Assembly: GCF_009935845.1 (NCBI RefSeq)
Contig: NZ_QWEK01000006.1
Span: 124,001 to 188,000 of the forward strand
Length of the DNA stretch: 64,000 bases
DNA from: Pseudoflavonifractor sp. 524-17
Lineage (GTDB): Bacteria; Bacillota; Clostridia; Oscillospirales; Oscillospiraceae
Reading direction: 5' to 3'
Under the pieces are notes generated by a model. It was not told the DNA's origin. It made no database searches and worked only from the letters and a program-made list of their open reading frames with translations. Made by a program: the position numbers and the translations under genes. Positions 2,581-60,840 of the stretch are shown here, one piece after another; within the stretch, counting starts at the first letter, position 1; the number at the start of each line of letters is the position of its first letter.

Positions 2581-2583
2581 CGG

Positions 2584-2766
2584 CTACAGATTGGAGCGTG
2601 CCAGTCCCAGACGGAGCCCCCAGAGAAAGGAGACTTCGCACTGGCACAGTGGGTGTTGGTGTATGGGGAAGCTGTGCCGGCACTATAATATCTCCGCCAC
2701 CTGCTGGGGCTGACAGATGAGAAGCGGAAGCTGGCGGACGGGGCGGAACAGGCAGAAAAGAGGTAG
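2584..2766. pseudogene. Collapsed remnant of a small-protein/XRE regulator pair
   Basis: This gap between topA and trmFO is a deletion relic of the module that is intact at 4091-4675. On the minus strand, 2628-2584 encodes FLWGLRLGLARSNL and a stop, matching the end of the intact small protein (LVWGLRLGLSLPRL). Directly after it, on the plus strand, come KLCRHYNISA and then, after a frameshift, LLGLTDEKRKLADGAEQ and a stop at 2766. These match LLCRHYNVSADYLLGLTDDP of the intact regulator. The N-terminal halves of both genes and their shared promoter region are gone. Nothing here is likely to be expressed as a working protein. Confidence 0.75.
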
Positions 2767-2768
2767 AG

Positions 2769-4070
2769 ATGCAACCGGTTGTGATCATTGGCGCGGGCCT
2801 GGCGGGGTGCGAGGCGGCGTGGCAGCTGGCCCAGCGGGGGATCCCGGTGGATTTATGGGAGATGAAGCCCTCCAAAATGACCCCCGCCCATCATACCCAG
2901 TGGTATGGGGAGCTGGTGTGCTCCAACTCCCTGCGGTCGGACCAGCTGGAGAACGCGGTGGGCCTGCTGAAGGAGGAGCTGCGGCGGATGGGGTCTCTCA
3001 TCCTCCAGTGCGCGGACGGACACCGGGTGGAGGCTGGCGGCGCACTGGCGGTGGACCGGCATGCCTTCGCCCAGGCGGTCACCGCCCAGATCAAAGGCCA
3101 CCCTCTCATCACGGTGACAGAGAAGGAGGCGGAGGGCCTGCCTGAGACAGGGGAGGTAATCGTGGCCTCCGGCCCGCTGACCTCCCCGGCCCTCAGCGGG
3201 GAGATTGCCAAGCTGTTCCCCAACAGCCGGTCCCTGAACTTTTACGACGCGGCGGCCCCTTTAGTCACGTTTGAGAGCGTGGACATGGAATCGGCCTGGT
3301 TTGCCTCCCGGTACGACAAGGGCACTCCGGACTATATCAACTGCCCCCTGAGCGAAGAGGAGTACGACGCCTTCTGGACCCAGCTGTGCGGGGCGGAGGA
3401 AGCGGAGGTCCACGGTTTTGAGGACAAGCAGGTCTTTGAGGGTTGTATGCCAGTGGAGGTGATGGCCCGGCGTGGGCGGCAGACCCTGTGCTTTGGGCCG
3501 CTGAAGCCAAAGGGCCTCCGGGATCCGAAGACGGGAAAAGAGCCCTTCGCCGTGATCCAGCTGCGCCGGGACAACGCCGAGGGCTCCATCTATAATCTGG
3601 TAGGCTTCCAGACCCACCTGAAATGGCCGGAGCAGAAGCGGGTGTTCTCCATGATCCCCGCCCTGAAAAACGCCCAATTTGTCCGCTACGGCGTCATGCA
3701 CCGCAATACCTATCTGGACTCCCCCCGGCTGCTGGACCGGTACTACCGGGTGAAGGGGGAGGAGCGAATCTGCTTTGCCGGGCAGATCACCGGGGTGGAG
3801 GGCTATGTAGAGTCCGCCGCCTCCGGCTTCCTGTGCGCCGTGGAGCTGGCCCGCCGCCTCCAGGGCAGGCCGCCGGTGGATTTCCCCCAGGAGACCGCCG
3901 TGGGCGCCCTGGCCCTATATGTGAGCAATGAGACGGTGACGGACTTCCAGCCCATGAACGTCAATTTTGGCATCATCCCGCCCCTAGGGTACCGGGTCAA
4001 GGGCAAACGGAACAAAAACGCCGAATTGTCCAAACGGGCCCTGGACATTGTGGCTGGTTTGGATTTATAA
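2769..4070 (+). CDS. trmFO: Folate-dependent tRNA (uracil-5-)-methyltransferase TrmFO
   Basis: This 433-residue flavoprotein makes 5-methyluridine at position 54 of tRNA, with methylenetetrahydrofolate as carbon donor and FAD/NADH as reductant. The N-terminal FAD-binding glycine motif is VVIIGAGLAGCEAA (residues 4-17). The conserved TrmFO stretches YGELVCSNSLRSD and GQITGVEGYVESAASG are both present. The length is typical for the family. AGAGGT precedes the ATG. The gene follows topA as in Bacillus, after the 180-bp regulator relic. Confidence 0.96.
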   Translation: MQPVVIIGAGLAGCEAAWQLAQRGIPVDLWEMKPSKMTPAHHTQWYGELVCSNSLRSDQLENAVGLLKEELRRMGSLILQCADGHRVEAGGALAVDRHAFAQAVTAQIKGHPLITVTEKEAEGLPETGEVIVASGPLTSPALSGEIAKLFPNSRSLNFYDAAAPLVTFESVDMESAWFASRYDKGTPDYINCPLSEEEYDAFWTQLCGAEEAEVHGFEDKQVFEGCMPVEVMARRGRQTLCFGPLKPKGLRDPKTGKEPFAVIQLRRDNAEGSIYNLVGFQTHLKWPEQKRVFSMIPALKNAQFVRYGVMHRNTYLDSPRLLDRYYRVKGEERICFAGQITGVEGYVESAASGFLCAVELARRLQGRPPVDFPQETAVGALALYVSNETVTDFQPMNVNFGIIPPLGYRVKGKRNKNAELSKRALDIVAGLDL

Positions 4071-7321: not shown

Positions 7322-8899
7322 ATGTATTTGGAGATAAGCAGCCCCATGGATTACCATGCGGCACTATACATCCGACTATCAAAAGAGGATGAGAGGGAAG
7401 GCCCCTCCGAGAGCGTTAATAACCAGCGGTCCCTGCTTAACGGCTTTGTCCAGCAGCACCATCTCAGCGTCCATGATACTTATATTGATGACGGCTGGAG
7501 CGGAACGAACTTCGACCGCCCGAATTTTCAGCGCATGCTCGCCGACATTGAGGCCGGCAAGGTCAACATGGTCATCACAAAAGACCTGAGCCGCCTGGGC
7601 CGCGACTACATCCTCACCGGCCACTATATGGAGCGGTACTTCCCGGAACACCGGGTCCGCTACATCTCCCTGCTGGACGGCATCGACACCGGGGTGGACT
7701 CCACCGCCAATGACATTACGCCCTTCCGGGCAATTATGAATGACATGTACGCCAAGGACATCTCCAAAAAAATCTCCAGCGTCAAACACGACAAGCAGCG
7801 CAAGGGCCTGTTTATCGGCGGCAAACCGGTCTACGGCTACAAGATGCACCCCGCAGAGAAGAACAGAATTGTGATTGACGAGGACGCGGCCCCTACGGTG
7901 CGAAGAATTTTCGCAATGGCACTGGAGGGCATGAGCTGCCGTCAGATTGCTGTGCAGCTTAACGCGGAAGGCGTACCCACTCCCGCCGCCTATGCTGGAC
8001 TGCCGGTGGCCAGACCCGGCCCCTACACCGGCCTTTGGAGCGGCGAGCGTATCTCTGATATGCTGCAAAATGAGACGTATACCGGCAGCATGGTTCAGGG
8101 CCGCACTCGGAAGATTAGCTACAAGTCCAAGAAGTGTATCAAGCAGGACCGGCGGGACTGGGTGGTAGTAGAGGGCACTCACGAGCCGTTGATTGACCGG
8201 GAGACCTTCGATAGAGTGGGGGTGTTGGTCAGCAGCCGCAGGCACACCCGCAGCCGGACCTATGACTTCCTGCTCAAAGGGTTCATTTTCTGCCACGAGT
8301 GCGGCTATCCGCTGGCGGTGCTTAACCGGAAAAATGCGGCCGGGGAGGACCAGCTGTATTTCGTCTGCCGGACCTACCAGCGGTTTACGAAGGCGGGTGC
8401 CTGTACCAGTCACACCATCAAAGAGGAGACAGTCACCCGGGCGGTGGTGGAAAAGGTGCGGGAGATCTGTGGGGGCTGTCTGCAAGCGGACCGGCTTTTG
8501 CCTCAGGCGAGCAGGGCAGTGGCCAAAGCCATTGCCGGGGCGGACAGCGAAAAAGAGCTCAACGCCCTCAAGGGCAAGATTGACAGCCTGACCGCTCACT
8601 TGGACAGGATGTACATGGATAAGCTCGGCGGTATCCTGGACGAGGCCGATTTCCAGCGCATCTACAGCAAGGTCAAGTCCGACCGTGCCGCTCTGGAACA
8701 GCGTCTCAGCCAGCTGGACCGCCCAGACGGCTCCCCGGCGGAGCAGGCCGGTCTGGCAAAAAAGCTGACGGAGCGGTTCCTGGAAACCGCCTGTGCCAAC
8801 CGGGCGCTGTTGGTCAGCCTCATCGAGCGGGTAGAGCTGACCGCGGACAAACTGATTATTGTCAAGTTTCGCTTCCGGCAGCTGGAAGCGGATTTTTAG
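7322..8899 (+). CDS. Large serine recombinase (first copy)
   Basis: This 525-residue site-specific recombinase has an N-terminal resolvase domain. Its catalytic serine is Ser20 in YIRLSKEDE, with DDGWSGTNFDRPNFQRML and TKDLSRLGRDYI following. A recombinase domain (YGYKMHPAEKNRIVIDE onward), a zinc ribbon (CHECGYPL, then FVCRTYQRF) and a C-terminal coiled coil complete it. The ATG at 7322 has AGGAGG 6 nt upstream. It stands between rnc and mraZ with no cargo and no interrupted gene, so it is probably a stranded remnant of a larger element. It is clearly related to the recombinase at 30532. Confidence 0.93.
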   Translation: MYLEISSPMDYHAALYIRLSKEDEREGPSESVNNQRSLLNGFVQQHHLSVHDTYIDDGWSGTNFDRPNFQRMLADIEAGKVNMVITKDLSRLGRDYILTGHYMERYFPEHRVRYISLLDGIDTGVDSTANDITPFRAIMNDMYAKDISKKISSVKHDKQRKGLFIGGKPVYGYKMHPAEKNRIVIDEDAAPTVRRIFAMALEGMSCRQIAVQLNAEGVPTPAAYAGLPVARPGPYTGLWSGERISDMLQNETYTGSMVQGRTRKISYKSKKCIKQDRRDWVVVEGTHEPLIDRETFDRVGVLVSSRRHTRSRTYDFLLKGFIFCHECGYPLAVLNRKNAAGEDQLYFVCRTYQRFTKAGACTSHTIKEETVTRAVVEKVREICGGCLQADRLLPQASRAVAKAIAGADSEKELNALKGKIDSLTAHLDRMYMDKLGGILDEADFQRIYSKVKSDRAALEQRLSQLDRPDGSPAEQAGLAKKLTERFLETACANRALLVSLIERVELTADKLIIVKFRFRQLEADF

Positions 8900-9055
8900 G
8901 GGCAGCCGCTTACAATATCAGGGGCGCTATGTATCCCGCATAGAGAAAAAAGCGCTGAAGAAGCTGGAGCTGGCAATGGGCCAGCGGGTATAGCAATTTG
9001 TGGGCGGGGGCTTGAAATAAGACGCTGTGTTCCATGGCTGTGAACACCGTGTCTA

Positions 9056-9218
9056 AGAAGCTGTACCAATAGGCGAAGTGCGTGTATGGGCAAGAAAATT
9101 TTTTGGCTGGCAAGGAAGAAACGCGCAGGAATCCTGGCGGATTTCAAGCGTTTTTGATGCAGTCCAGCCGGAACATGTTCTGTCCAGACGCGTGTTGCCG
9201 CCTATTGGTACAGCTTCT
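9056..9218. repeat. Short inverted-repeat element (MITE-like)
   Basis: The 163-bp element is bounded by perfect 20-bp inverted repeats: AGAAGCTGTACCAATAGGCG at 9056-9075 and its exact complement at 9199-9218. Read on the minus strand, the interior (ACTGCATCAAAAACGCTTG, then ATTCCTGCGCGTTT, then CCAGCCAAAAAATT) matches the interior of the repeats at 58195 and 60676. It encodes nothing. The size, ends and recurrence fit a non-autonomous transposable repeat. Confidence 0.85.
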
Positions 9219-9385
9219 AAGCCTCCGTCCGCAGCTTTACCGCTCAAAAGTTCGCTTCTCCGGTTTCCAGATGGAGAAAAGGCAGCGCCCTTCCTTTGAG
9301 TAGAACATACGTTTCTATTTTGAGAAAGTAGGGTGATTTCGACAAAAGCAGAGGATTTCCTCTGGAAAAGTGAACAAAAAAACTG

Positions 9386-9414
9386 TTGCAATTTTGTTAG
9401 AAAACGGATATACT
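9386..9414 (+). promoter_or_regulatory. Promoter of the division/cell-wall cluster
   Basis: TTGCAA (9386-9391) and TATACT (9409-9414) are separated by 17 bp. The promoter lies just upstream of the MraZ repeats and is the only strong promoter seen before the mraZ-ftsZ series. Confidence 0.8.
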
Positions 9415-9424
9415 AAAACCGTAG

Positions 9425-9459
9425 TGGAGCAAAATGGAGCAAAGTAGAGCGAAGTGGAG
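9425..9459 (+). promoter_or_regulatory. MraZ operator: four TGGAG-type repeats at 10-bp spacing
   Basis: TGGAG occurs at 9425, 9435 and 9455, and TAGAG at 9445, exactly 10 bp apart, so all face the same side of the helix. MraZ is known to bind short TGG-rich direct repeats with this period upstream of its own gene. Lying between the promoter and the mraZ start, they imply autorepression of the cluster. Confidence 0.85.
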
Positions 9460-9473
9460 GGAGCGGACAGCAA

Positions 9474-9911
9474 ATGACCGGCACCTATGAGCATACCATT
9501 GATGCCAAGGGCCGGATGTTTCTGCCCTCCAAACTTCGGGAAGAGCTTGGCCAGGTGTTCCATGTGGCTGTAGGGGCCAACCGGGACAGCGCCGGGGTAT
9601 GCAGGTATCTGGTCATGTATCCCCAGGCCGCCTGGGAGAAGCTGCAGGCCCGCGTGGCGGAGCTGCCCAGCAGCCAGGCGGCGGCTATGGACGTGATCTT
9701 CGGCAACGCCGCCCGGTGCGAGCCGGACAGCCAGTACCGCATTATGCTCCCCCAGGACCTGCGGGACTACGCGGGCCTGACAAAAGATGTGGTCGTGGTG
9801 GGAAACAACGACAAGGCCAAGATCTGGGACGCCCAGACCTGGAATGAGAAAAAGAAGCGGGAGCTTACCCCGGAGCAGGTGGCGGACACCATGCTGCTGC
9901 TGGGGCTGTAG
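9474..9911 (+). CDS. mraZ: Transcriptional regulator MraZ
   Basis: This 145-residue protein has two SpoVT/AbrB-like swapped-hairpin halves: TGTYEHTIDAKGRMFLPSKLRE near the N-terminus, and DSQYRIMLPQDLRDYAGL in the second half. It forms rings that bind DNA repeats and controls the division cluster. Four such repeats lie directly upstream. It is the first gene of the cluster, as usual. GGAGGG precedes the ATG at a rather long spacing of 12 nt. Confidence 0.96.
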   Translation: MTGTYEHTIDAKGRMFLPSKLREELGQVFHVAVGANRDSAGVCRYLVMYPQAAWEKLQARVAELPSSQAAAMDVIFGNAARCEPDSQYRIMLPQDLRDYAGLTKDVVVVGNNDKAKIWDAQTWNEKKKRELTPEQVADTMLLLGL

Positions 9912-46329: not shown

Positions 46330-46370
46330 ACATCCCTCCTGTCCGCTGGCAGGGGGGATGTAAAATTTTT
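46330..46370. terminator. Terminator between TetR gene and helicase gene
   Basis: ACATCCCTCCTG pairs with CAGGGGGGATGT (one G-T pair) around an 8-nt loop, with six A upstream and a T-rich tail downstream. It serves both convergent transcripts: tetR and the four-gene minus-strand operon. Confidence 0.85.
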
Positions 46371-46390: not shown

Positions 46391-49300
46391 CTAAGGCGCG
46401 GGGGGAACGTCCCGGCTGAGGCGGCGGAGGACGGCCTCAGTTGTGAGGGGGGCGCCCCTGCGCTGAGAGAGGGAGGAGGCCGCGCGCCGGGCGCAGTCCA
46501 GGGCGCAGCGCAGGGGCAGGCCGTGGACGGGGACAGAGATGCTCCCGCTCTGCTCGCTGACGGGAAAGAGGAGTTTTGCCTGGACGCCGCTGAAGGCGGC
46601 CGGCAGGGGGAGATGGCGGATTTCGCCGGCGGTCTCTTCCAGATGGCGGAGGGCGTCCGAAAAGCGGAGGACACCCCGCTCCCACTCCTGTTGGAGGAGA
46701 GAGCAGGCTATGGTGTGAAGGAGGCGGTCCTCCAGCCGGGCGTACACCAGATTTTCCCCCTCCGCCTGCTCCGCCAGACGGACGTGGCCGGCGTACGGGG
46801 CGGCGAGGACGGCCAGCTGTTCCTCCGCCGCCGCAGCCTCCTCGTCAGAAATCACGCCGCCCGTTTCCAAGCAGAGGCCGTCCAGCTGAGAGAGCGCGGT
46901 GATCAGCCGCGTACCGCCCCGGACGGAAACCAAATAGCCCACGGTTTCTACTCCGCCGCTGTGGATGCAGATCCGGCGGACCGGGCCGTTTGGGGGCAGT
47001 TTTTCCGCTATAAGCGCCAGGAGCCGGTCCACGCCAGGGTTACCCCAGGTCAAAAAGGAGACGCGCTCGGTGATGGCATCCCGCTGGATGGTGCCCTCCA
47101 GGGCGGGACATTCCGGCGTCTCCGGCAGCCGCCACACCGGACCAGAACAGAAAGCCCCCAGACTCTGGAGATAAGGGGACTGGGTGAGCGCCGCCCAGAG
47201 GTCCTCCAGACAGGCGCTGGGGCGGTCCTGCGCGGCTTGGACCCGGTCTGTCTGGTACAGATTGTACTGGCTCTCCGGAGAGAGCTCCATGGCAGCCGCA
47301 GCGTCCCGCTGGCGCTGGAGGCGCTGAAGGGAGCGCCGGGCCAGAGTCTCCTCGTCCAAGGTGCCGTTCTGGAGCGCGCGGAACTCCCCGGCCTCCACTG
47401 GCAGTATGGAGATCTGCTGCTGGCCTACCACCAGATTGGCGGACTGAAGCCGGGCGAAAAGACGGCCGTAGACCGCCTCCTCCACACTGCCCAGATAGCA
47501 CAGGTTGAGAACTTCGATACAGTCGTGCTTCTGCCCGATGCGGTCAATGCGGCCGATGCGCTGTTCCACCTTCACGGGATTCCAGCCCAGATCGAAGTTG
47601 ATGAGCAGATCGGCAGTCTGCAAATTGAGTCCCTCGGCGGCGGCGTCAGTACACAGGAGCAGATCCACCTCTCCCTGGAGAAACAGGCGCTTGAGGGCCA
47701 GGTGGGAGACGGGCTGGTCCTTTTTCAGGGCGGGATCGTACCACTGGGCCTGGCTGCCGGCGTAGATGCCCGCCCGGAGATTGGGATCCCGGAGGAGCAG
47801 GTGGCGGCGGATGGAGATTGCCGTGTCCAGAAACCGGGTAAAAAGCACCGTCTGGCGCAGACGTCCGCCAGACCGGCGGCGATCCAGCTCCTCCAGCAGG
47901 GTCTGAATTTTGGAGGGGGTCTCCTGCATGGCTTGCAGCTGGGTGAGCATTTGGGTAAGCCGGCGGCGCTCCCACTCCAGGCCGGGCCTGCTCCGGTCCC
48001 TGAGCAGCAGCTCTACCGTTTGGGCGTCCAGATCGCTCTCGGCATAGTCGTCCTCTCTCAACAGATGCAATAGGGTGTTTGGCGCCCAATCCTCCTCCTG
48101 CGGCCTGGCGGCGTGGAGGGCGGCGTCCACCCGGCGCAGCCGCCGGGCCAAGGTCATCTGGACGGCATACAGGCTGGAGGCGAAGCGCAGCTGGAGAAAA
48201 TTGAGGAGAAAGGCGATCCGCTGTCTGACCTGGGCGCCGTCCTGGGCGGCGCGGCGTTCCAACTGCTGGCAATAATCATTGAGCCGGGCGTAAAAACCGG
48301 CCTCCGCCGGGGTGAAGGAGACGGTGCGGAGGGGGCGCACACAGCGGCGGGCCAGCCTGCCCTTCAGCTCCCCCTTTTGACGGTAGAGCTCCAGAAGGGA
48401 GCGGGTGTGGCGCATCATCACCCGGGAGAGAGGGGAGGCGGCAAAAAGGGGCTGGGTCAGATAGGGGATGTCCCCCTGTTTGGGGGGCCGGTGGGGGAGC
48501 ATCTCCAGGGCGGCGCGGTTTTTCCCGGTGACAAAGGTCCGGTTGAGCTCCTCCCACAAAAAGGGATCCAGGGCCTCCAGCTGGTGAAAGCTTTTGCCCA
48601 GCAGGGCCCACTGGTCCGGGGTGAGCTTCTCCCGGCGGACCAGCCGGTCCATCAACGAGAAATAGGCCGCGGTCAGGGTGGGATCGGCCTGGTAGGGCCC
48701 AGTGCGCCGGGTGAGGCAGAGGAGATCATAGACCTCAATGGGGTCGATCTGCATAGGGGTGGCGGTGGCCAGCCACATACTTTTGGCCTTGGGCCGGAGT
48801 GCGTCCCGGAAAACGGTGTACAGCCGTCCGTAGTCTGGAGCGGCAGAGGCGCCGTCCTGGGGATTGTGCCGGCGGGCGTAGTGGGCCTCGTCTGCCAGAA
48901 CCACGTCGTAGTCTTCGGCGGCCTGGAGGGCCTGGATTCGTTCTTCCCGGCAGAGCAGAGCGGAGGAGACCAGATTCAGCGCCGGGCCCAGCAGGTTCTG
49001 ATCGGAGGTCTCCCGCGGCTGGGGAAGGAGAAACTGGTGCTGGATCGCCCCGCCGGATTTGGGGGTGCTTTTGGCAAAGGGGAGCATGGCCTTCTGGGCC
49101 AGCTCCCGGTGCCACTGGCCGGTGAGGCCGGCAGGGGCGGCGATGAGCACGCGTTTCACCCGGCCGGACAGAACCAGACAGCGCAGGGCCAGGGCTGCCT
49201 CTACAGTCTTGCCCAGCCCCACCTCGTCGCACAGCAGATAGGAGCAGGGCCAGCGCTCCACCAGGCGGCGGATGACCGCCTCCTGGTGGGGCCAGGGGGC

Positions 49301-50173
49301 GACGGGGGCGGAGTACATCCCCAGCAGCCCGCCGCCGGGGAGCTTGGGCGCGTCCTGGAGGAGGGCGAAAGCCAGCAGTTCCTTTACGGTGGGCCGGATT
49401 TCCCGGCGGAAGGAGGTGCCGTCCACCTCCACCGGGCGGCGGCGCAGGGTTTTCAGGCTGACCAGCCGGCTGCGCACGGCCTGGGGAAGGGGAAGGATCG
49501 CCATATGAGGGAGCTCGTTGTCCCACAGCCGGCAGAAGTGCCGGTGGGCCAGCTCCACCCGCTGCCAGTCCCGGCCTCCCTCCCAGTCCCAGTGGAGGTC
49601 GATGTTTTCCGCGTTCAGGGTCAGGGCGGTTCGGGACTCGTTGAGGGAGCCGCTGCCGTAGAGGCGGTTGCCTTGGGCGTCCCCCATGAGAAACCACTTC
49701 TCGTGGACATAGCCCCCCTCTGGGTCGTCCAGCGTGAGAGGGCGGCCGGTTGCGGCGCTGCGCCGGAAGGCCACCCGGATCTCCAGCCGGCCGGCAGCTA
49801 CCATCTGACACAGGAGGGAGACGCCGTTCTGTACGGCGTCCGGCCAGGCGTGGGGACGGTCCAGCGCCTCCATAAGCCGCTGGGCCAGGCGCTGACGGTC
49901 CCCGCGGAGCACGGCGGCCACGTCCCGGGGGTGGAGATCCGCGCCCACAATGAGGCGCATGGTCCCGCCGTGGCTGAAAAACGCGGTATACCCCTGGGAG
50001 GCGGCCGCCAGGGAAGAGGAGCGGAAGTAGCCCGCCACCCGGTCATAAGTAATTGCCCGGGACAGGGCGGGGAGATAAAAATCCCGAAGCACATCGGTGG
50101 GTTCCCCCTGAGCGTTGAGATCAGAGGAGCTGTAGCGCAGCTGCCAGGGGCAGCGGGTGAAGTCAGCCTCCAT
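46391..50173 (-). CDS. PLD-nuclease-like / SNF2 helicase, last gene of the DUF499 operon
   Basis: This 1260-residue protein starts with a phospholipase-D-like domain (HEKWFLMGD at about 154, then GSGSLNES), with one HxK motif and no second copy seen. A superfamily 2 helicase core follows: GLGKT near 318, LADEAHYARR near 425, WLATATPMQ, then the C-lobe with QRIGRIDRIGQKHD near 868. The last 300 residues are unique. This is the DrmD/SNF2 type of DNA translocase seen in defence islands. It overlaps the methylase gene by 11 nt. The helicase residues look intact, so it should be active. Confidence 0.88.
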   Translation of the reverse strand: MEADFTRCPWQLRYSSSDLNAQGEPTDVLRDFYLPALSRAITYDRVAGYFRSSSLAAASQGYTAFFSHGGTMRLIVGADLHPRDVAAVLRGDRQRLAQRLMEALDRPHAWPDAVQNGVSLLCQMVAAGRLEIRVAFRRSAATGRPLTLDDPEGGYVHEKWFLMGDAQGNRLYGSGSLNESRTALTLNAENIDLHWDWEGGRDWQRVELAHRHFCRLWDNELPHMAILPLPQAVRSRLVSLKTLRRRPVEVDGTSFRREIRPTVKELLAFALLQDAPKLPGGGLLGMYSAPVAPWPHQEAVIRRLVERWPCSYLLCDEVGLGKTVEAALALRCLVLSGRVKRVLIAAPAGLTGQWHRELAQKAMLPFAKSTPKSGGAIQHQFLLPQPRETSDQNLLGPALNLVSSALLCREERIQALQAAEDYDVVLADEAHYARRHNPQDGASAAPDYGRLYTVFRDALRPKAKSMWLATATPMQIDPIEVYDLLCLTRRTGPYQADPTLTAAYFSLMDRLVRREKLTPDQWALLGKSFHQLEALDPFLWEELNRTFVTGKNRAALEMLPHRPPKQGDIPYLTQPLFAASPLSRVMMRHTRSLLELYRQKGELKGRLARRCVRPLRTVSFTPAEAGFYARLNDYCQQLERRAAQDGAQVRQRIAFLLNFLQLRFASSLYAVQMTLARRLRRVDAALHAARPQEEDWAPNTLLHLLREDDYAESDLDAQTVELLLRDRSRPGLEWERRRLTQMLTQLQAMQETPSKIQTLLEELDRRRSGGRLRQTVLFTRFLDTAISIRRHLLLRDPNLRAGIYAGSQAQWYDPALKKDQPVSHLALKRLFLQGEVDLLLCTDAAAEGLNLQTADLLINFDLGWNPVKVEQRIGRIDRIGQKHDCIEVLNLCYLGSVEEAVYGRLFARLQSANLVVGQQQISILPVEAGEFRALQNGTLDEETLARRSLQRLQRQRDAAAAMELSPESQYNLYQTDRVQAAQDRPSACLEDLWAALTQSPYLQSLGAFCSGPVWRLPETPECPALEGTIQRDAITERVSFLTWGNPGVDRLLALIAEKLPPNGPVRRICIHSGGVETVGYLVSVRGGTRLITALSQLDGLCLETGGVISDEEAAAAEEQLAVLAAPYAGHVRLAEQAEGENLVYARLEDRLLHTIACSLLQQEWERGVLRFSDALRHLEETAGEIRHLPLPAAFSGVQAKLLFPVSEQSGSISVPVHGLPLRCALDCARRAASSLSQRRGAPLTTEAVLRRLSRDVPPAP

Positions 50174-53100
50174 CCTGTCCTCGCTTTCGCTCTCTCAGGC
50201 CAAAGCAGATCTGCTGGGCCTCGGCGGACAGCTCCTTGTTGCCGCAGCACTTTTCCCAGACGGTGAGCAGGTCGGACAGCGTTTCCTCCTGGCCTCCGGC
50301 GTGGCGCTGCAAATAGGCCCGCGCTACCGGCATGTCGCCGTCCCGGAACGCCATGATTACCCCCTGCATAATATCCCAACCGCTCTGTGGGTGCTCCAGA
50401 CGGCGGGGATTGCGCTCCTCCGGCAGGGCCAGACGCAGGCGGCTGCCCCGTTTAATCAGGGGCGCGTAATAGCCCTCGACATCGTCGTCCAGCCGGCGGC
50501 GGCCGGTGCGCTCGTCGTTGATGCCGATAATACGCCCCTCGTCCCGGTAGCCGCCGGGCTTGTGCTCCAGGCGGATATTGAGGGATTTGGACAGGCTCAG
50601 GGCGTCGTCATAAGGGAACCAGCGCGTGCCGTAGATGCCGAGCAGGGTGAGGGCGGCGCCGGCCTCGGGGGCCAGATCGTTGACAGTGAGCCGCCCCTGG
50701 GTGAGGCGGGTGATCTGGTGCTGATAGACCACAGTGCTGGCCTCCAGCATGGCCCGGGTGGGGGAGACGGGAGTATCCCCGTCCAGAACGGGCCAGTGCT
50801 CGGACAGGACCTTCAGGGCGCTGCCGTAGCTGGCCACCATCTCGTCCACAGGGTTGAGACGCAGGGGCTCGAAGTCGTGCAGGCTCCGGCGCACCGCCTG
50901 GCGCAGCTGGGGCAGTACGCCCGCGCCGCCGAAGCCGTTCCACAGGGCGGGGGCGCCGTCTCTTGGCTCCCGCTTGCGGCAGGCCAGGAAAATGGAGCTG
51001 GCGGCTGCCGCCATGTCCTTCTGGTGGAGGGATCCGCCGGACTCGGAGTCCACCGGGAAGGAGGAGGAAATTACCCAGCCGTTTTCTATCAGCGCCTGGG
51101 TGAGGGTCTCCCACGCGGCCTGGGTTTTGTGGGTGAACATGACGGTGAGAATGCCGTCGTCCCGCAACACCCGGCGGCACTCGGCAAAGATCTCGCTCAT
51201 GCGCTGCTCATAGGCCTGGCTGGCCTCCTGTGCGCCCCCATCCCGGGCGGGATTGGCCACGGCCTCGTCGGCTTTGTTGGTGAGCCGCCGGCCGAAGAGC
51301 TGGGGGTACAGGGCGCGGAAAGTGCGCTTTTGCCAAACGTAGAAGTAGTCAGACAGCTCCGCATACTGGACGTTATTGTAATAAGGGGGATCCATGCAGA
51401 TCACATCCACGCTTTGATCCGGCAGGCTCAGATTAGCGGCGGAGCCGTTGAGCACGGTGACGGCTTTGGACGCGTTGGGTCCCAGCAGGCGGCAGATGCC
51501 CTCATAGGCGTCCAGCACCTGATCCCGGCCCCAGGCCAGGGCGCTGTTGGGGCCGGTATAGATCAGCTCGCCAAAGGTCCACTTGAGAGAGAAGTCGTGC
51601 CGGCCAAAAGAGCCCACCATGGCGCCCCGGGAGTAGTGCCAGCGGGTCTGCCGGCTGTTGTAGTCGATGCACTTGTCAACCATGTACTGGAGGTAGGTGA
51701 GGATGGCGGCGCCCTTCTCTTGACCATGGGCCTCCAGAATGGCGGGGGTCATGCGGCGCAGGGTCTCCATGGCGGTGAGGTGGCCCAGAAGCTGCCGGGG
51801 GGTAAAGAAGTCATGCCAGCGGCGGGCGCCGGCGTGGAGGGGCTCCGCCGTCTTGTGTCCGGCGGGGATGGTCTCTGTGGGGATGAGGTCCATGTCCAGC
51901 CACCGGTCCCAGTTGGCGTCTAGAGCGGCCTGGGCCCGGTTTACCGCCTCGTAGTCGGCGGCGGTGGGGGCGCGGAAGAAGGTGACCTTCTCCGTGCGCA
52001 CCTCCCCCTTGCGGGGGCCGGAGGTATAGGTCATCACAGCGCCGTTTTTGTCCCGCTTGGGCTGCTCCCGCACGGCGGCGACGCAGTAGAGCAGATCGCT
52101 CCACGCGCCGTACTGGGACTGCCCGCAGGCCTGGCGCTTGATCTCATCGCCGGAGATGGCCTGCCCGCAGTGCAGGCAGGTGCCCACACCGCCCTTGACG
52201 GTGCCCCGTTCCGGGTCCTCCCCCTGGGGGCCTTTTCCGCCGCGCAGGCGGACGGGGACAAAGCGGACCTGCCTGCGGCCGGGGAGACCGGTAATCTCCG
52301 GCTGTACCATCCAGCCGTCCGCCCGCTTTTGCAGGGCGAAGGAGTTGAGCAGGGGGGCCCGCTCCCCGCAGCTGGGGCAGGTGACGGTGCGGCAGTAGAG
52401 CAGGCCCCGCTGGTCGTACTCCGGCCGGTCAAACTGGTCAAAAAGGGTCTGTGAGCCGCCGCACTGGACCAGCAGGCGGTCCCGATCCGGCCCGGAGGGG
52501 GGCTCGAAGTGGTAGTAGGGGGCCATAATCTCGGCTACAGCGTCCGCCAGAAGTGTCCCGTAGCGCTCCAGAAGGGGATAGAGGTCCCTGCCGTACCGAG
52601 CGGGGTACTGGATGGTGGCCATTTCAATGACGCTGGCCACCGGGTTGAGGTCGTTGGAGATGACCTTGCAGCCCAGGCGGGCGGCCTCAAAGGGGATGGA
52701 GCCTCCGCCGGCGGTGGGGTCCAGCACGGTGATGTGGGGGAAGGCGGCGGGGACGGGGCTCTCATAGGCGCGGCCGTAGGCGTAAAGATCCTCCGGGTCG
52801 ATCTGAATGGCCCGGCCCAGCAGCTGAGTGACCTTCCCGCTCTGGGCAAAGGCGATGCGCTCATTGATGTGGGCGGGGTCGGCGGCGACGGATACCACGG
52901 GGATAGGGGCCTGCGGCTCCAGCGCGGCGGCAGGGAGGGGAGAATTTTCCTCATACCACCGCCGGAGGACAGGATCCTGTTCCAGCTCCGGGTCCCCGTC
53001 GGCCAGGCGGCGGAGACAGACACGGACCTTCTCCCGCCGGGCGGCTTCGTTTTGCAGCGCCTTTTGCAGGGCGGGGGAGGGGGGAAGTGCTTCTGTGCCG

Positions 53101-53396
53101 CCCTCCCGCTGGATGAGGGCCAGATTTTTTCCGGTGAGGGTCCAGCGGACGCCGCCCAGGACGGCCTGCTTTTTCACCAGACCCAAATCCTGCAAAAAGA
53201 GCTCTGGGTCGGTGTCCCCGGGGAGAATGCTGCCCAGCACCGCCGCCCGGCTGGGAGTGAGAGGCCGGCGGGCCCACCAGACGTGGAGAAAATAGAGGGG
53301 CGGCAGGGCAGAACTGGCCCCCCGCTCCCGCTTGGTCTCCGCCCCCACCTGCTGGCAGGGGAAGGATCCCTCAATCAGTGTTGTCTTGTATCCCAT
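50163..53396 (-). CDS. DUF1156-type adenine-specific DNA methylase with zinc ribbon
   Basis: This 1077-residue protein has the DUF1156 opening (TLIEGSFPCQQVGAE, then LHVWWARRPLTPSRAA at about 37-52), SAM motif I DPTAGGGSIPFEAA near 225, zinc knuckles CPSCGERAP near 339 and CLHCGQ near 406, and catalytic DPPYYNNVQYAELSDYFYVW near 665. DPPY is typical of N6-adenine or N4-cytosine methyltransferases. The start at 53396 follows GAGGTG. An ATG at 53408 overlapping the previous stop (ATGA) is the alternative. In a defence role it would mark host DNA as self. Confidence 0.9.
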   Translation of the reverse strand: MGYKTTLIEGSFPCQQVGAETKRERGASSALPPLYFLHVWWARRPLTPSRAAVLGSILPGDTDPELFLQDLGLVKKQAVLGGVRWTLTGKNLALIQREGGTEALPPSPALQKALQNEAARREKVRVCLRRLADGDPELEQDPVLRRWYEENSPLPAAALEPQAPIPVVSVAADPAHINERIAFAQSGKVTQLLGRAIQIDPEDLYAYGRAYESPVPAAFPHITVLDPTAGGGSIPFEAARLGCKVISNDLNPVASVIEMATIQYPARYGRDLYPLLERYGTLLADAVAEIMAPYYHFEPPSGPDRDRLLVQCGGSQTLFDQFDRPEYDQRGLLYCRTVTCPSCGERAPLLNSFALQKRADGWMVQPEITGLPGRRQVRFVPVRLRGGKGPQGEDPERGTVKGGVGTCLHCGQAISGDEIKRQACGQSQYGAWSDLLYCVAAVREQPKRDKNGAVMTYTSGPRKGEVRTEKVTFFRAPTAADYEAVNRAQAALDANWDRWLDMDLIPTETIPAGHKTAEPLHAGARRWHDFFTPRQLLGHLTAMETLRRMTPAILEAHGQEKGAAILTYLQYMVDKCIDYNSRQTRWHYSRGAMVGSFGRHDFSLKWTFGELIYTGPNSALAWGRDQVLDAYEGICRLLGPNASKAVTVLNGSAANLSLPDQSVDVICMDPPYYNNVQYAELSDYFYVWQKRTFRALYPQLFGRRLTNKADEAVANPARDGGAQEASQAYEQRMSEIFAECRRVLRDDGILTVMFTHKTQAAWETLTQALIENGWVISSSFPVDSESGGSLHQKDMAAAASSIFLACRKREPRDGAPALWNGFGGAGVLPQLRQAVRRSLHDFEPLRLNPVDEMVASYGSALKVLSEHWPVLDGDTPVSPTRAMLEASTVVYQHQITRLTQGRLTVNDLAPEAGAALTLLGIYGTRWFPYDDALSLSKSLNIRLEHKPGGYRDEGRIIGINDERTGRRRLDDDVEGYYAPLIKRGSRLRLALPEERNPRRLEHPQSGWDIMQGVIMAFRDGDMPVARAYLQRHAGGQEETLSDLLTVWEKCCGNKELSAEAQQICFGLRERKRGQDGG

Positions 53397-53404
53397 GGCG
53401 CACC

Positions 53405-53983
53405 TCATTTCCTCAGCCGTTCCAGCAGCCGGCGCACTTCCGCTGCGTCCTTCTGCTGCCCGGCCAGCATCAGCCGCAGGCCGGATTTCGCCCACTCAAT
53501 GCCCCGCCGGCCGTATAGGCTTTCCATGCTGACCTTGCTGAGCCAGTACATGGTTTCCTCACGGCTGAAGCGCTCAATCCGCCAGGCCATAAGCTCAATG
53601 CGCTCCGCGCTGCGCACCTGGGGGTGGAGCTTGAAGAGCAGGGCCAGCTTCGCGCCGGTGATCTCGTCCAGTGGGATTTGCCCCCGGTAGACAATGCGGC
53701 CGTCCAGCAGCTCTTGGAGATTCAGGGGCCGTCCGGCGTCATCGGCGGCGTGGCTCATCATAAGGCAGATGGCCCGCCGGCAGGCGCGCAGGGCGCCGTT
53801 GTAGATCCGCCCGTATTCATACAGTTTTGTGGTGTTGCGGGGGGTGGGGCGGCGCTCGCAGATCTCCAGCACCGGCCCGGTAAATTCCTTCCGGTCGGAG
53901 ACACGCAGAATCCAGCTGGCCTTTTTCAGCATGGGGCCCATGGCCTCCACCACATAGCGCTGCCGGCTGTTCAGCTCGTCCAT
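53405..53983 (-). CDS. 192-residue operon protein, unknown (DUF3780-like by position)
   Basis: The protein is mainly helical and basic (RQRYVVEAMGPMLKKASWILRV, RIYNGALRACRRAICLMM, GRRGIEWAKSGLRLMLAGQQKDAAEVRRLLERLRK). No catalytic motif was recognised. AAGGAGG lies 7 nt before the ATG and 12 nt after the ATPase stop, and its own stop abuts the methylase start. Operons of this type often hold a small extra protein called DUF3780, but I cannot confirm similarity. It may be an adaptor between ATPase and methylase. Confidence 0.75.
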   Translation of the reverse strand: MDELNSRQRYVVEAMGPMLKKASWILRVSDRKEFTGPVLEICERRPTPRNTTKLYEYGRIYNGALRACRRAICLMMSHAADDAGRPLNLQELLDGRIVYRGQIPLDEITGAKLALLFKLHPQVRSAERIELMAWRIERFSREETMYWLSKVSMESLYGRRGIEWAKSGLRLMLAGQQKDAAEVRRLLERLRK

Positions 53984-53995
53984 TGGACAGCCTCC

Positions 53996-56900
53996 TTATC
54001 TGTTTAATTCTCTGATCAACCCGCAGCCGTCGTCCGGGTTGGTAATGATGAGGTCGGCGTCGGTATCCGGAGTGGCGGCGGCGGCATCGCTGACGGCCTG
54101 AAACAGGTCGTCAAGGAGCTTGATATCCCCGGGGGCGGCGTTGCTCAGGGCAATGCGCAGGGTTCCTCCGCCGGGAAGGCGGAGATCCGAGATATCCAGG
54201 CTGTCGATGGTGCTGGTGGCGCCGCCCCGGATATATAAACTGGCCAGCCGGCGCAGCAGGGGGACCAGCCTGCGGGCACCGTCGCCCCCGCTGAGCCGGA
54301 ACGTCCGGCTCTGGGGATCCAGCCAGCCCCGCTGGCTCTGCTCCGACAGGGTAATGAGCACATCGCCGGGCTGGGGATCGTAGGAGAAGGCGGCAAATCC
54401 GTTGAGGATAGCGTCAGGCCGCTCCGTCTGATCGGGGGTGCCCTGGTACAGGGCGTAGCCGGGGGTCTGGATGAGCTCCCGGATATTGTCCTTGATCTGC
54501 TGCTCCGGGACGCCAGCCAGCTGGAACTGGACGGTGTCAATCAGGCTGCCCACCGCGGCCGTGCCGGAGGTGTGCATGACATCGGATAGGACGGTTTTGA
54601 TCCGCTCATTTGGAATCTGTCCGCTCTCCCCCCACCCCCGCCGCCGGGCGCCGGCGGCGGTCATAAGGGAGTACCCGCCGGACAGGAGGCTGCTGCCGAG
54701 GGGAAGCGGGTTTTGCTGGCTGTAAAACACGCTGGGCAAGGTGTCGGCGGGGTCGCCGGACATCTGATAGGCCACCCAGACGCCGCTGTCCACCCCCTCC
54801 CGGAGGAGTGCTTCCAAAGTATCTTTGCCGGGGAGCATGGGCCAGCTGCGGTAGCAGAAGAAGGAGGACAGGAGCTGGGCGGCGGGGATCTTGTCACCGG
54901 CCTTAAAAAAGTAGTTGTCCCGCAGCTGGCCCAGCATCGCGGCGCCCAGCCGTCCGCCGGAGGGCACAAGGTCGCCGCTGTCTCCCATAATCTGCAATAC
55001 CTGATTGAACAGAGCCACATCGCCGTCGGCCACAGCCCGGAGCTCCTTGTGGCTCAGGCCCCCGGCGGCAGGGTAGTAGAGGTCGGTGTACAGCTCATAT
55101 ACGCTGGTGGTCAGGCCCATGTGCCGGTCCGCGTCCCGGCTGACAAAGTCGGGGTCGTTCAGCTTGGCGGGGGCAATCCCGTAGGCTTGGGGATTCTCTT
55201 TCAGGGTGTCAATGGCCAACACCTGGCGGGCGATGGTCTCAACCCGCTCCCGGATCTCCGTGGTGCGGGCGCTGTCCGCCCCCAATTCCAGCTGCTGGTT
55301 GGGGCGGGGATCCCTGACCTTGACTGTTTTGGGCGCCAGGAGAATGACCAGATTCTGGTGCTCCCGGGGGCGGCCGCCCCCCCGCTGGAGGATGAGTTCC
55401 ATGGGGTCGATCTCCTGGGCGTCGGGGGCGATGACGGCGAGGGTGGGCCGCTCCTGGTGGTCAGGGATGTCCTCGGGATAGCGCACGCCGGCCTCCACCC
55501 GGAAGGCGGAGACATTGCGCAGCAGCCCCTGGGCTACGGTACACAGCTTCTGCTTCACCCGGCGCTCGTCAATGGTCTGGCGGATCATGGCCAGGACGCT
55601 GTTGATGGTGGGATCCAGATGGGCGTAGTAGGTTCCGTCCTCATAGCGCAGGTAGAAAGCGCTCTCGGCGATCTCGTCCAGAGCGGTGCGCACCTGGGAG
55701 GGAGTGAGCGCGGGGGTGGCGGTCTGGAAGACGGCGTCCTGCTGAGAGACGCCGAATATCTTGGAGGAGCGCCCCTCCGCCCGGCCCACAAGACTGTTCA
55801 AAAAGACCACCTTCCAGGTCTTTTCGTACAGGGGCAGGCCGTCGGGATGGGGGTTGCGCTGGTCGGCGCGCTGGGCGTTGCTCAGGCCGCTGCGCAGGCT
55901 GTGGGAGTCGGCGCTGCCCACATCGGCGTTTAACACCTGGCGCAGGTCGGCGCTGGCGGTGCGGCCCAGCAGCTCGTTGACGATGGCGTTGTTGTGCAGA
56001 TCGATGTCGCTGACGTGGATGAGGGGGACAGGTACGCGCCGGTTCCAGATGCTGCGCACCGTCATGGCCAGCACCCGCAGCACCCCCCGGGTGCCCTGGA
56101 AATATTCCGCCTGGGCCAGCTTATTGTTGAGAAAGTCGATTAAAGTGGGGTGGAAGGGGTAATTGGCGGCCATACGGCTGTGGAAACGGGGGTTGGCGGC
56201 CTCCTCCGGCAGGGCGGCGGAGTTGCGCCGGTACAGGGCGGCGTATTCCTCCGCAGCGGACTGAGCCGCCTTGGGATCAACGGAGTCAAACAGGCGCTTG
56301 GCCAGTACGGAGGCGATCTCGCTGGCCTGGACGGGGGTGACGGCGGTGGCGTCGCGCATCACCACGCTGGTCACGCCCCGGACGGCCTGCTCCGCCAGGG
56401 CGGCGGCGTCGTCCTGGTGGATGTCCCCAGCGCCGATCTGGTTGAGCAGCTGGGTGAGATGCTCTGTATGGCGGGAGAAGGCGTCCGCCGCTCCGGCCAG
56501 AGTGACAATGAGAACGACACCGGTGTGCTGCTTGGCGTAGCCGTTGAGGGACATAAGAAAGGCGGCCAGCTGGTCCGCCCCCTGATCGGGGACGGCCACC
56601 TCCAGCCGGGCGGCGTATTGGGCCAGCTCGTCCAGCATGATAAGGACCTTTCTGCCCCCCAGAACGGTGTCCAAAAAGTGCTTTCCGGGGGCGGCAAAGG
56701 ACTCCGCCTGGGCCTTTACCTGGCGATAGAGGGCCTCTCCGCCGATCTGATAGGCCAGCTCTCCCCACAAGGTATAGGGGATCAGCCGGTCTCCCTGGGT
56801 GCGGCTGACGGGAATCTCATCCCCGGCGATGCCGGCTACAACGATACTTCCGGGGGCAGGCAGGTACTGTGCTGGAAGAATGTCCTGCGTCACGCCGGCC

Positions 56901-57232
56901 AGCTCCGTGCCCCGGCTGGCGATGTGGACGCAGGCGATGAGACAGTGGGTTTTGCCGCCGCCGAAGGCGGTCTCCAGACGGTAGATGGAGGGGGCGGCGG
57001 CGTCGCCGGCCAGCCGCCGGAACACGCTGGATACCGTCTGCTGCAGGCCCTGGGTAGGGTAGGTAGCGACGCGGAAGAATTCCTCCGCGTCGGTATAAAT
57101 AGAGTCAATATTGCCGGGGACGCCCCGATAATGCTGGATCACAGGGCCCAGGGCCGCAGTAAAGACCTCTGGGTTAAAGGTGCCTTGCAAAATACTTCCA
57201 CGAGGCGCACAGCTGTCCAAAACAGATTCCAT
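53996..57232 (-). CDS. DUF499-type P-loop ATPase (BrxC/PglY-like), first gene of the operon
   Basis: This 1078-residue protein has the Walker A variant TAFGGGKTH (88-96) and Walker B VLIMLDELAQYA (196-207), the pattern of the DUF499/COG1483 AAA+ ATPases to which, as I recall, BREX BrxC/PglY belongs. Further blocks are NYPFHPTLIDFLNNKLAQAEYFQGTRGVLRVLA and the C-terminal DSLDISDLRLPGGGTLRIALSNA. The ATG at 57232 is chosen for GAGGAG 8 nt upstream. A later frame start at 57295 has none. It is led by a strong promoter and heads the four-gene transcript. Confidence 0.9.
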   Translation of the reverse strand: MESVLDSCAPRGSILQGTFNPEVFTAALGPVIQHYRGVPGNIDSIYTDAEEFFRVATYPTQGLQQTVSSVFRRLAGDAAAPSIYRLETAFGGGKTHCLIACVHIASRGTELAGVTQDILPAQYLPAPGSIVVAGIAGDEIPVSRTQGDRLIPYTLWGELAYQIGGEALYRQVKAQAESFAAPGKHFLDTVLGGRKVLIMLDELAQYAARLEVAVPDQGADQLAAFLMSLNGYAKQHTGVVLIVTLAGAADAFSRHTEHLTQLLNQIGAGDIHQDDAAALAEQAVRGVTSVVMRDATAVTPVQASEIASVLAKRLFDSVDPKAAQSAAEEYAALYRRNSAALPEEAANPRFHSRMAANYPFHPTLIDFLNNKLAQAEYFQGTRGVLRVLAMTVRSIWNRRVPVPLIHVSDIDLHNNAIVNELLGRTASADLRQVLNADVGSADSHSLRSGLSNAQRADQRNPHPDGLPLYEKTWKVVFLNSLVGRAEGRSSKIFGVSQQDAVFQTATPALTPSQVRTALDEIAESAFYLRYEDGTYYAHLDPTINSVLAMIRQTIDERRVKQKLCTVAQGLLRNVSAFRVEAGVRYPEDIPDHQERPTLAVIAPDAQEIDPMELILQRGGGRPREHQNLVILLAPKTVKVRDPRPNQQLELGADSARTTEIRERVETIARQVLAIDTLKENPQAYGIAPAKLNDPDFVSRDADRHMGLTTSVYELYTDLYYPAAGGLSHKELRAVADGDVALFNQVLQIMGDSGDLVPSGGRLGAAMLGQLRDNYFFKAGDKIPAAQLLSSFFCYRSWPMLPGKDTLEALLREGVDSGVWVAYQMSGDPADTLPSVFYSQQNPLPLGSSLLSGGYSLMTAAGARRRGWGESGQIPNERIKTVLSDVMHTSGTAAVGSLIDTVQFQLAGVPEQQIKDNIRELIQTPGYALYQGTPDQTERPDAILNGFAAFSYDPQPGDVLITLSEQSQRGWLDPQSRTFRLSGGDGARRLVPLLRRLASLYIRGGATSTIDSLDISDLRLPGGGTLRIALSNAAPGDIKLLDDLFQAVSDAAAATPDTDADLIITNPDDGCGLIRELNR

Positions 57233-57346: not shown

Positions 57347-57375
57347 AGTATAACAAAAAGGCGGCGGCGGTTCAA
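57347..57375 (-). promoter_or_regulatory. Promoter of the DUF499 operon
   Basis: On the minus strand TTGAAC (57375-57370) and TATACT (57352-57347) are 17 bp apart, followed by about 115 nt of leader. It is the only strong promoter seen for the four genes. Confidence 0.8.
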
Positions 57376-58126: not shown

Positions 58127-58187
58127 GGGCCTTGTTTGAGAAATGGCACAATACCCGGCGGCGAGAGATTTTTTCGCCGGACAAAGT
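58127..58187. repeat. Partial inverted copy of the 165-bp repeat
   Basis: The sequence GGGCCTTGTTTGAGAAATGG and the following GGCGGCGAGAGATTTTTTCG are the complement of the right end of the repeat at 58195-59409. It lies head-to-head with that copy, 8 bp away, and starts just after the SLOG gene stop. Confidence 0.7.
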
Positions 58188-58306
58188 CTGGGGTTAGGCC
58201 TTGTTTGAAAAATGTCGAAACGCCCAAACGGCGGCTCTTTTTCCGCCATACTTTGCCGATTTTCCTTGAAATACATCCAGTATTCCTGCGTCAAATCGGC
58301 TTTGTC

Positions 58307-60636: not shown

Positions 60637-60675
60637 AGCGTCCTCTCTATTCTGCCGGTTTGAGGCGATAGATAT

Positions 60676-60840
60676 TAGGCCTTGTTTGAAAAATGTCAAA
60701 ACGCCCAAACAGCGGTTCTTTTTCCGCTGTACTGCGTTAAAAATGCTTGCAATACACAAAGTATTCCTGCGCATTTTTGCCTTGTTCAGCGAAAAAATTC
60801 CTCGCTGGTGGTGATTTCGCCATTTATCAAACAAGGCCTA
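60676..60840. repeat. 165-bp inverted-repeat element, intact copy
   Basis: It is bounded by TAGGCCTTGTTTGAAAAATG (60676-60695) and the complement of TAGGCCTTGTTTGATAAATG at the right end, 19 of 20 bases matching. Internal hairpins include AGCGG-TTCTTTTT-CCGCT. It is non-coding. Three other full or partial copies occur in the window. Confidence 0.85.

Follow-up and report, generated by a model that had tools for sequence, protein, structure and literature searches.

We analyzed a stretch of 64,000 nucleotides (the window) from Pseudoflavonifractor sp. 524-17 (assembly GCF_009935845.1, contig NZ_QWEK01000006.1, positions 124,001–188,000, forward strand), which contains a four-gene operon that probably encodes an anti-phage variant of the DUF499-centered BREX-related (BR)/Hma class. 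The variant is marked by a small protein of the Pfam family DUF7680 and is new, whereas the broad class has already been published. The operon comprises the following features, given in window coordinates.

57347..57375, minus strand: sigma-70-like promoter, TTGAAC-17-TATACT with a TG extension; a consensus match alone, 9 of 12 bases
53996..57232, minus strand: DUF499 AAA+ ATPase (HmaC-like) with DUF7744 at its C-terminus, 1078 aa; from Pfam, PADLOC and motifs
53405..53983, minus strand: small subunit of the DUF7680 family, 192 aa, occupying the position that DUF3780 has in Type-2 BR systems
50163..53408, minus strand: DUF1156 amino-methyltransferase (HmaB-like) with two CxxC pairs, 1081 aa; from Pfam, PADLOC and motifs
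46391..50173, minus strand: HKD (phospholipase D, PLD) nuclease domain fused to an SNF2 helicase, 1260 aa; from PADLOC, NCBIfam and motifs
46330..46361, strand undefined: inverted-repeat terminator that separates the operon from the converging TetR gene; from a terminator scan and the sequence

All four open reading frames (ORFs) proposed in an earlier note on this DNA are present on the minus strand with the same coordinates, and its junctions hold as well: a 12-nt gap between the ATPase and the small gene, which is preceded by an AGGAGG site; an ATGA overlap of the methylase start with the DUF7680 stop (53408–53405); and an 11-nt overlap of the methylase and helicase ORFs (50163–50173). The length of the ATPase is counted from the ATG chosen in that note, and its ORF can be extended to 57295. 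We agree that the genes form a single operon. The promoter at 57375–57347 had been called strong, but is moderate by its consensus match. At the distal end, for which a terminator had been proposed, the inverted repeat and T-runs close the operon and separate it from the TetR gene; the scan lists this terminator on the plus strand, and six T directly follow the repeat on the minus strand as well. Rfam gave no match in the window at gathering scores.

Protein families and motifs

Pfam confirmed the DUF499, DUF1156 and SNF2 families that had been named from the sequence, and PADLOC assigned the corresponding proteins to HmaC, HmaB and PLD_Helicase. The ATPase matches DUF499 (PF04465; E 3.2e-34), DUF7744 (PF24897; E 6.8e-28) and HmaC (4.8e-68). 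The methylase matches DUF1156 (PF06634; E 2.4e-12), N6_N4_Mtase and HmaB (1.3e-63). The helicase contains SNF2-related and Helicase_C domains in Pfam, and its PADLOC matches are led by PLD_Helicase (2.4e-57) and PbeA (7.4e-55), followed by BrxH, DrmD and HmaA (8e-45). The small protein, which had been left nameless, belongs to DUF7680 (E 4.5e-21), the family that marks the variant; the window copy has no match in the PADLOC 2023 library. The operon proteins also match the NCBIfam “anti-phage” equivalogs NF042962–NF042964, among them NF042964 for the helicase (4.7e-94), but all score far under the models' own cut-offs, which identifies them as relatives rather than close members.

Conserved motifs are intact in the window ATPase (Walker A GGGKT, Walker B VLIMLDE), methylase (DPTAGGG, DPPY) and helicase (HEKWFLMGD..GSGSLN, GLGKT, DEAH, QRIGRIDR), in line with the earlier note. 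Its assignment of a PLD domain to the helicase is supported by PADLOC (PLD_Helicase, PbeA), by NF042964 and by the HKD motif, but the Pfam match is weak in the window (PLDc_2, E 0.18; 8.6e-6 in the related cyanobacterial locus L036). With regard to a PD-(D/E)XK fusion, Pfam gave no nuclease match in the window helicase at E 0.001. A search by sequence for relatives of solved structure returned none for the ATPase at E up to 1, and for the small subunits only matches at E 0.06–1.

Conserved gene order and distribution

An alignment of five DUF7680 proteins, searched against genome contigs, retrieved 70 loci, in which partner genes were sought with home-made profiles. All three partners are present in 48 of the 70 contigs and at least one in 69, which bears out the conserved neighborhood that had been suggested as a check. 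One of these 69 (L098) is counted solely through decayed pieces at ~26 bits; the single partnerless contig is L051. Wherever partners were found, the order is ATPase, DUF7680, methylase, helicase: in all 66 of the 66 loci with DUF499, this gene precedes DUF7680 on the same strand (median gap 17 nt when starts are chosen automatically); the methylase lies downstream of DUF7680 in 64/64, and the helicase follows the methylase in 49/49. Since the loci were collected via DUF7680, these counts do not give its frequency among DUF499 systems. A DUF499 match is present in 67 of 398 genomes sampled from the phylum, and 7 of 20 regions from the phylum's best DUF499 matches, a score-chosen set, have a DUF7680 match, four of them divergent (50–55 bits).

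DUF7680 is found in Bacillota, Pseudomonadota, Thermodesulfobacteriota, Myxococcota, Verrucomicrobiota, a Coriobacteriaceae metagenome-assembled genome (MAG), Cyanobacteriota and other taxa. Within the genus, it is present in one of ten genomes, the one studied here, and within the class in 2 of 391, again counting this genome. It also occurs on plasmids typed as mobilizable; this patchy spread and the mobilizable plasmids are as expected of a defense module. Cyanobacterial plasmids, including pAQ6 of Picosynechococcus PCC 7002 (L036), carry a 142-aa form of DUF7680 and other genes between the partners. On the Picosynechococcus plasmids (L036:10477–25308, L037:10538–24426), toxin-antitoxin-like PIN, HigB-like, VapC and XisH/XisI genes stand among the operon genes.

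Such toxin-antitoxin-like neighbors would suit a methylase that serves gene regulation or a selfish post-segregational element, with defense as a secondary effect. We regard this explanation as highly improbable: the 48 of 70 contigs mentioned above have retained helicase and ATPase alongside the methylase, many of the others being cut by a contig or stretch end; a survey of the class (PMC12839542) cites an experimental study (PMC11232893) for antiphage activity of its helicase-nuclease; and lone subunits are carried by phages, as described below.

Relationship to published systems

The gene combination, whose mechanism the earlier note regarded as not worked out, has been described before. 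It is that of PADLOC's Hma class, for which the Hma system was named in PMC8565338, and of the DUF499-centered BREX-related class in the 2026 survey PMC12839542; PMC7641849 gives an earlier account of a COG1743-DUF499-SNF2 nuclease operon. The note also included BrxC/PglY in DUF499; the survey equates BrxC with DUF6079 and treats DUF499 as a separate relative. According to the survey, BR systems are restriction-modification (RM)-like and split into Type-1, with a PD-(D/E)XK fusion and often HEPN; Type-2, with an HKD-SNF2 helicase and DUF3780, which is a stand-alone gene in 98% of taxa; and Type-3, with PglZ and iSTAND. By combining a DUF499 ATPase, a DUF1156 methylase and an SNF2 helicase in a single operon, the window locus falls into the broad class. 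In the main texts of openly licensed PubMed Central papers (supplementary files being outside the search), DUF7680, PF24728, DUF7744 and PF24897 have no mention, and DUF3780 was found in PMC12839542 alone.

Type-2 BR, as described in PMC12839542, shares with the window operon the gene order, the DUF499 ATPase, the DUF1156 methylase, the HKD nuclease at the N-terminus of the SNF2 helicase and a small alpha+beta protein in the second slot. It differs in that the window locus has no DUF3780 gene, DUF7680 occupying its slot, and in that the window ATPase, methylase and helicase all fall outside the DUF3780 clade (on unrooted trees with no BREX outgroup). DUF3780 was found neither in the genome studied here nor in 76 loci (L033 and L036–L110).

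Hma/Type-1 BR systems (PMC8565338, PMC12839542) have a homologous ATPase, methylase and SNF2 helicase, and the GGGKT Walker A is common to both. Unlike the window operon with its four genes, they have three, in the order helicase, methylase, ATPase, without a small gene, and their nuclease is given in PMC12839542 as PD-(D/E)XK, the one recognized in the window operon being HKD. The same genome contains a second, canonical Hma (Type-1 BR-like) operon, intact and on another contig (C72 of the genome, G000; L035:352–10433). Its proteins align with the HmaA, HmaB and HmaC profiles over almost their full length at 1083–1663 bits, compared with 151–228 bits for the window operon. Type-3 BR is set apart by the lack of PglZ and iSTAND among the four operon genes; of the six neighboring genes scanned, five belong to other Pfam families and the sixth has no Pfam match.

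Membership in three further systems was considered and rejected. BREX is ruled out by the lack of PglZ, BrxA/B/L and Lon in the operon, which agrees with the earlier note's statement on PglZ, BrxL and Lon. In Type-3 BREX, BrxC, BrxXI and BrxHII are distant counterparts of the BR ATPase, methylase and helicase according to PMC12839542, but PglZ, BrxA and BrxF are missing from the window operon. Pbe, raised by the strong PbeA matches, is ruled out by its different ATPase and partners: in the archaeal PbeABCD systems (PMC6459918, PMC10853773), PbeA resembles the window HKD-SNF2 helicase, but the ATPase is of the ABC/CxC type and the partner is DndE-like, whereas the window ATPase is DUF499. No match to PbeB, PbeC or PbeD is listed for the operon proteins; the same two papers describe Pbe as working with phosphorothioation in the archaeal case tested. 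DISARM is ruled out because the helicase alone resembles a component, DrmD.

Phylogeny of the large proteins

Unrooted trees with no BREX outgroup were built by quick tree searches for the methylase (83 rows, ORFs of at least 750 aa), the helicase (62 rows) and the ATPase (65 rows, both with ORFs of at least 800 aa). Cyanobacterial and other rows were dropped by hand to thin the sets. Long branches were flagged in the helicase and ATPase trees and odd composition in all three; no Type-3 systems were identified among the rows. In all three trees, the DUF3780 systems form one side of a branch with a Shimodaira–Hasegawa-like approximate likelihood ratio test (SH-aLRT) value of 100, and the small-gene-less systems form a side of another such branch, again at 100. 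The DUF7680 systems lie between the DUF3780 and the Hma/Type-1-like systems. They fall into two parts: the window groups with Bacillota and Proteobacteria, and cyanobacteria make up the other part together with divergent members, so that on these trees the DUF7680 systems are not one clade. The nearest relatives of the window proteins are those of L039 and, in the helicase tree, also L040, from MAGs named Enterocloster and Ruminococcaceae.

The motif patterns are partly consistent with this placement. The GGGKT Walker A is present in 43/46 DUF7680-type and 12/12 small-gene-less ATPases, but in 0/23 of the DUF3780 type. An HKD pattern was found in 34 of 42 DUF7680-type, 0 of 11 small-gene-less and 5 of 23 DUF3780-type helicases; the last count is low at least partly because the pattern was tuned to the window, and Pfam detected PLDc_2 in both DUF3780-type helicases scanned (E 2e-12 and 1e-13).

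DUF7680 and DUF3780

DUF3780 loci have the order DUF499, DUF3780, methylase in 11/11 cases, with the helicase fourth in 10/11; in small-gene-less loci that have the complete set of three, the order is helicase, methylase, DUF499. The AlphaFold2 model of DUF7680 (phage copy L109; predicted local distance difference test, pLDDT, 91; predicted template modeling score, pTM, 0.89) consists of two N-terminal helices followed by the strand (E) and helix (H) order E E E H (h) E H H H H H. That of DUF3780 (L169; pLDDT 86, pTM 0.79) has the order E E E H E H H H H H. By their element order, both models thus contain a four-stranded sheet and five helices in the same succession. The similarity of the two deep family profiles is weak, but their alignment keeps strand four and the helices after it in register. 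It scores 28.1, whereas 200 column shuffles reach 21.3 at most and the reversed profile 13.3. From these models and profiles, DUF7680 and DUF3780 are probably distant homologues; if they are, loss of the small gene in Type-1 would be the simplest reading. Foldseek returned no known fold for DUF7680 at E <0.001 in PDB or BFVD. Its best structural match is RecO (Z 4.0, 7.8 A root-mean-square deviation over 125 residues), and RecO is again a weak match of DUF3780 (Z 2.5); both lie below a meaningful level and serve as a lead only.

The resemblance could go further, with the operon an ordinary, divergent Type-2 BR member and DUF7680 a DUF3780 protein beyond Pfam's reach, in which case nothing at the locus would be new. 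The gene order shared with the DUF3780 loci, the HKD/PLD domain ahead of SNF2 in both groups and the identical order of predicted secondary structure favor this. It nevertheless appears unlikely, as none of the 76 loci nor the genome itself has a DUF3780 match, and as the DUF3780 systems are separated from the DUF7680 systems at SH-aLRT 100 in three trees. The ATPases argue in the same direction, with GGGKT shared by the DUF7680-type and small-gene-less proteins and absent from all 23 of the DUF3780 type, as does the fit of the window-tuned HKD pattern to only five of the 23 DUF3780-type helicases.

Proposed function

The identity of the parts, their order, conservation, tree placement and intact motifs can be read from the sequence. 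We consider it likely that the operon is an RM-like anti-phage system of the DUF499-centered BR/Hma class, with DUF7680 as a fourth component that is probably a distant counterpart of the Type-2 DUF3780. A probable defense role had been proposed before, in our judgment rightly, and is based on the published relatives. The methylase would mark host DNA at sites chosen by its insert, and the ORC/Cdc6-like ATPase and DUF7680 may form a DNA-scanning platform. DUF7680, encoded between ATPase and methylase, would couple the two as a self/non-self gate. Once unmarked DNA had been found, the SNF2 motor would be loaded, and the HKD nuclease would cut or block the invader.

Several points weigh against this interpretation. 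The gate role of DUF7680 is one that we infer, and no phage test of a DUF7680 system was found in the openly licensed main texts searched. Eight of the 42 DUF7680-type helicases do not fit the HKD pattern, and no obvious defense island surrounds the operon in the window. The homology of DUF7680 and DUF3780 is called probable, not shown, because hhalign gives a probability of 21–27% with deep profiles and is not significant with shallow ones (probability <1%, E ~0.1). Finally, PMC6459918 reports that Pbe, whose PbeA has the same HKD-SNF2 build, blocks a virus with no cleavage of the viral DNA, so cutting need not be what the HKD domain does; PMC10853773 argues for cleavage by Pbe.

A DUF7680 group placed between the two main BR subtypes, with a subunit that phages carry alone, directs attention to one protein of ~190 residues. 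It would add a family beyond the PADLOC 2023 library and a candidate class of counter-defense genes in phages, and the lone small subunit in phages is the strongest lead.

Lone small subunits in phages

Viral contigs contain six distinct DUF7680 records: one with the full operon (L155), four with DUF7680 alone (L109, L110, L158, L159) and one with a methylase stub (L157). Among 28 viral DUF3780 records, L163, L172, L173, L181, L182, L183, L185 and L186 have no partner gene, apart from a weak and probably unrelated helicase match in L172. In whole-record searches, DUF499 was found in 0 of 14 records (13 lone copies and the fragment L187), with 3/3 positive controls detected, and a methylase solely as the stub in L157's record; the helicase was sought in the excerpted locus stretches. 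INPHARED yielded no phage relatives with two queries, and no DUF7680 of the cyanobacterial type was found in the viral contigs.

Among viral loci with at least 2 kb on each side, small subunits are alone in 9/28 (3/4 for DUF7680, 6/24 for DUF3780, L172 being scored as not lone owing to its helicase match). DUF499 is alone in 0/19 (Fisher p 0.0067 against the small subunits) and the methylase in 3/28 (p 0.10). Loci with less than 2 kb on a side were dropped (2/6 for DUF7680, 4/28 for DUF3780, 14/33 for DUF499 and 9/37 for the methylase); the comparison was made after the pattern had been seen, and the four locus sets share records. With the same flank requirement, 1 of 59 DUF7680 copies in genome contigs is alone. 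The partnerless L051, from a contig of Thermoactinomyces daqus H-18, has 76% identity to the same strain's operon copy (L077). L158 and L159 are shorter at the N-terminus, and the L157 protein has 54% identity to the window protein.

Most lone copies adjoin genes of phage families: L163 has terminase and portal beside it, L185 a tape measure, L183 and L109 recombinases (Bet or Erf), L157 and L110 endolysin domains, and further copies have other phage families. The single neighbor tested of each of L172 and L182 had no match, and for L159 the matches were confined to families of unknown function. On the starred branches, lone DUF7680 requires no fewer than four changes of state and lone DUF3780 no fewer than three. 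Between lone copies, the ratio of non-synonymous to synonymous divergence (pN/pS) is 0.26–0.44 in four pairs, two of which are near synonymous saturation.

Disabling of BREX by phages is reported to go through its ATPase (OrbA and BrxC, PMC11580459), and phages reportedly also carry antitoxin mimics (PMC11481870). The lone copies are proposed to be counter-defense mimics and would fit a decoy or lock. Their recurrence suggests that the small subunit is one point where phages can jam the system. A broader and more tentative idea, which we hold to be possible but somewhat doubtful, is that phages and mobile elements repeatedly capture DUF7680 or DUF3780 alone as an inhibitor that would occupy the ATPase or methylase surface and lock the host complex in a self-recognized, inactive state. 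On this view, self/non-self gating in the whole class would fall to the small subunit, and DUF7680 and DUF3780 would be one ancestral subunit, lost in Type-1/Hma.

The chances are about even that the lone copies do not act in counter-defense, but are remnants of captured operons or have another phage role, for example in reading modified bases. The L157 record resembles a decaying capture, with an N-terminal methylase piece right after DUF7680 (L157:10554–10919) that has 82% identity to the window methylase over 78 residues. Lone methylases occur too, and the excess of lone small subunits over them is not significant. The viral records come without a completeness estimate and may be fragments, and the comparison was post hoc, on overlapping locus sets. 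Against this reading stand the low pN/pS, though with near-saturation in two of the four pairs, several separate origins, some beside operon copies of likely hosts, the lack of lone DUF499 (p 0.007) and the phage-family genes beside most copies.

Two further observations concern the viral records. In L110, a DNA methylase gene with a PHROG match lies just upstream of the lone DUF7680, and another ORF resembles an amino-methylase by its SPPYYG motif (2228–3283 and 8519–9478, both methylase ORFs). Three viral contigs (L244, L245, L246) contain a remote DUF499-like ATPase (33–43 bits), a DUF1156-like methylase (261–268) and a helicase (408–414), and are possibly another branch of the class.

Genomic surroundings of the window operon

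The six neighboring genes scanned encode a PTS permease, a TetR protein, a YpsA-like protein, a hydrolase, a DUF4317 protein and a protein without a Pfam match. The flanking CoaX and DUF4317 genes defined no empty insertion site across 25 genomes, this one included, because their matches in the relatives lie on different contigs or far apart. The YpsA-family protein (PF06908; 57585–58121) has a SLOG domain and adjoins the operon on the opposite strand; SLOG proteins are known from other conflict systems. A dispersed repeat of ~100–170 bp is present at 58168–58305 and 60667–60834: elsewhere in the genome, 11 places match the N-terminal extension of the DUF4317 ORF, eight of them with internal stops.

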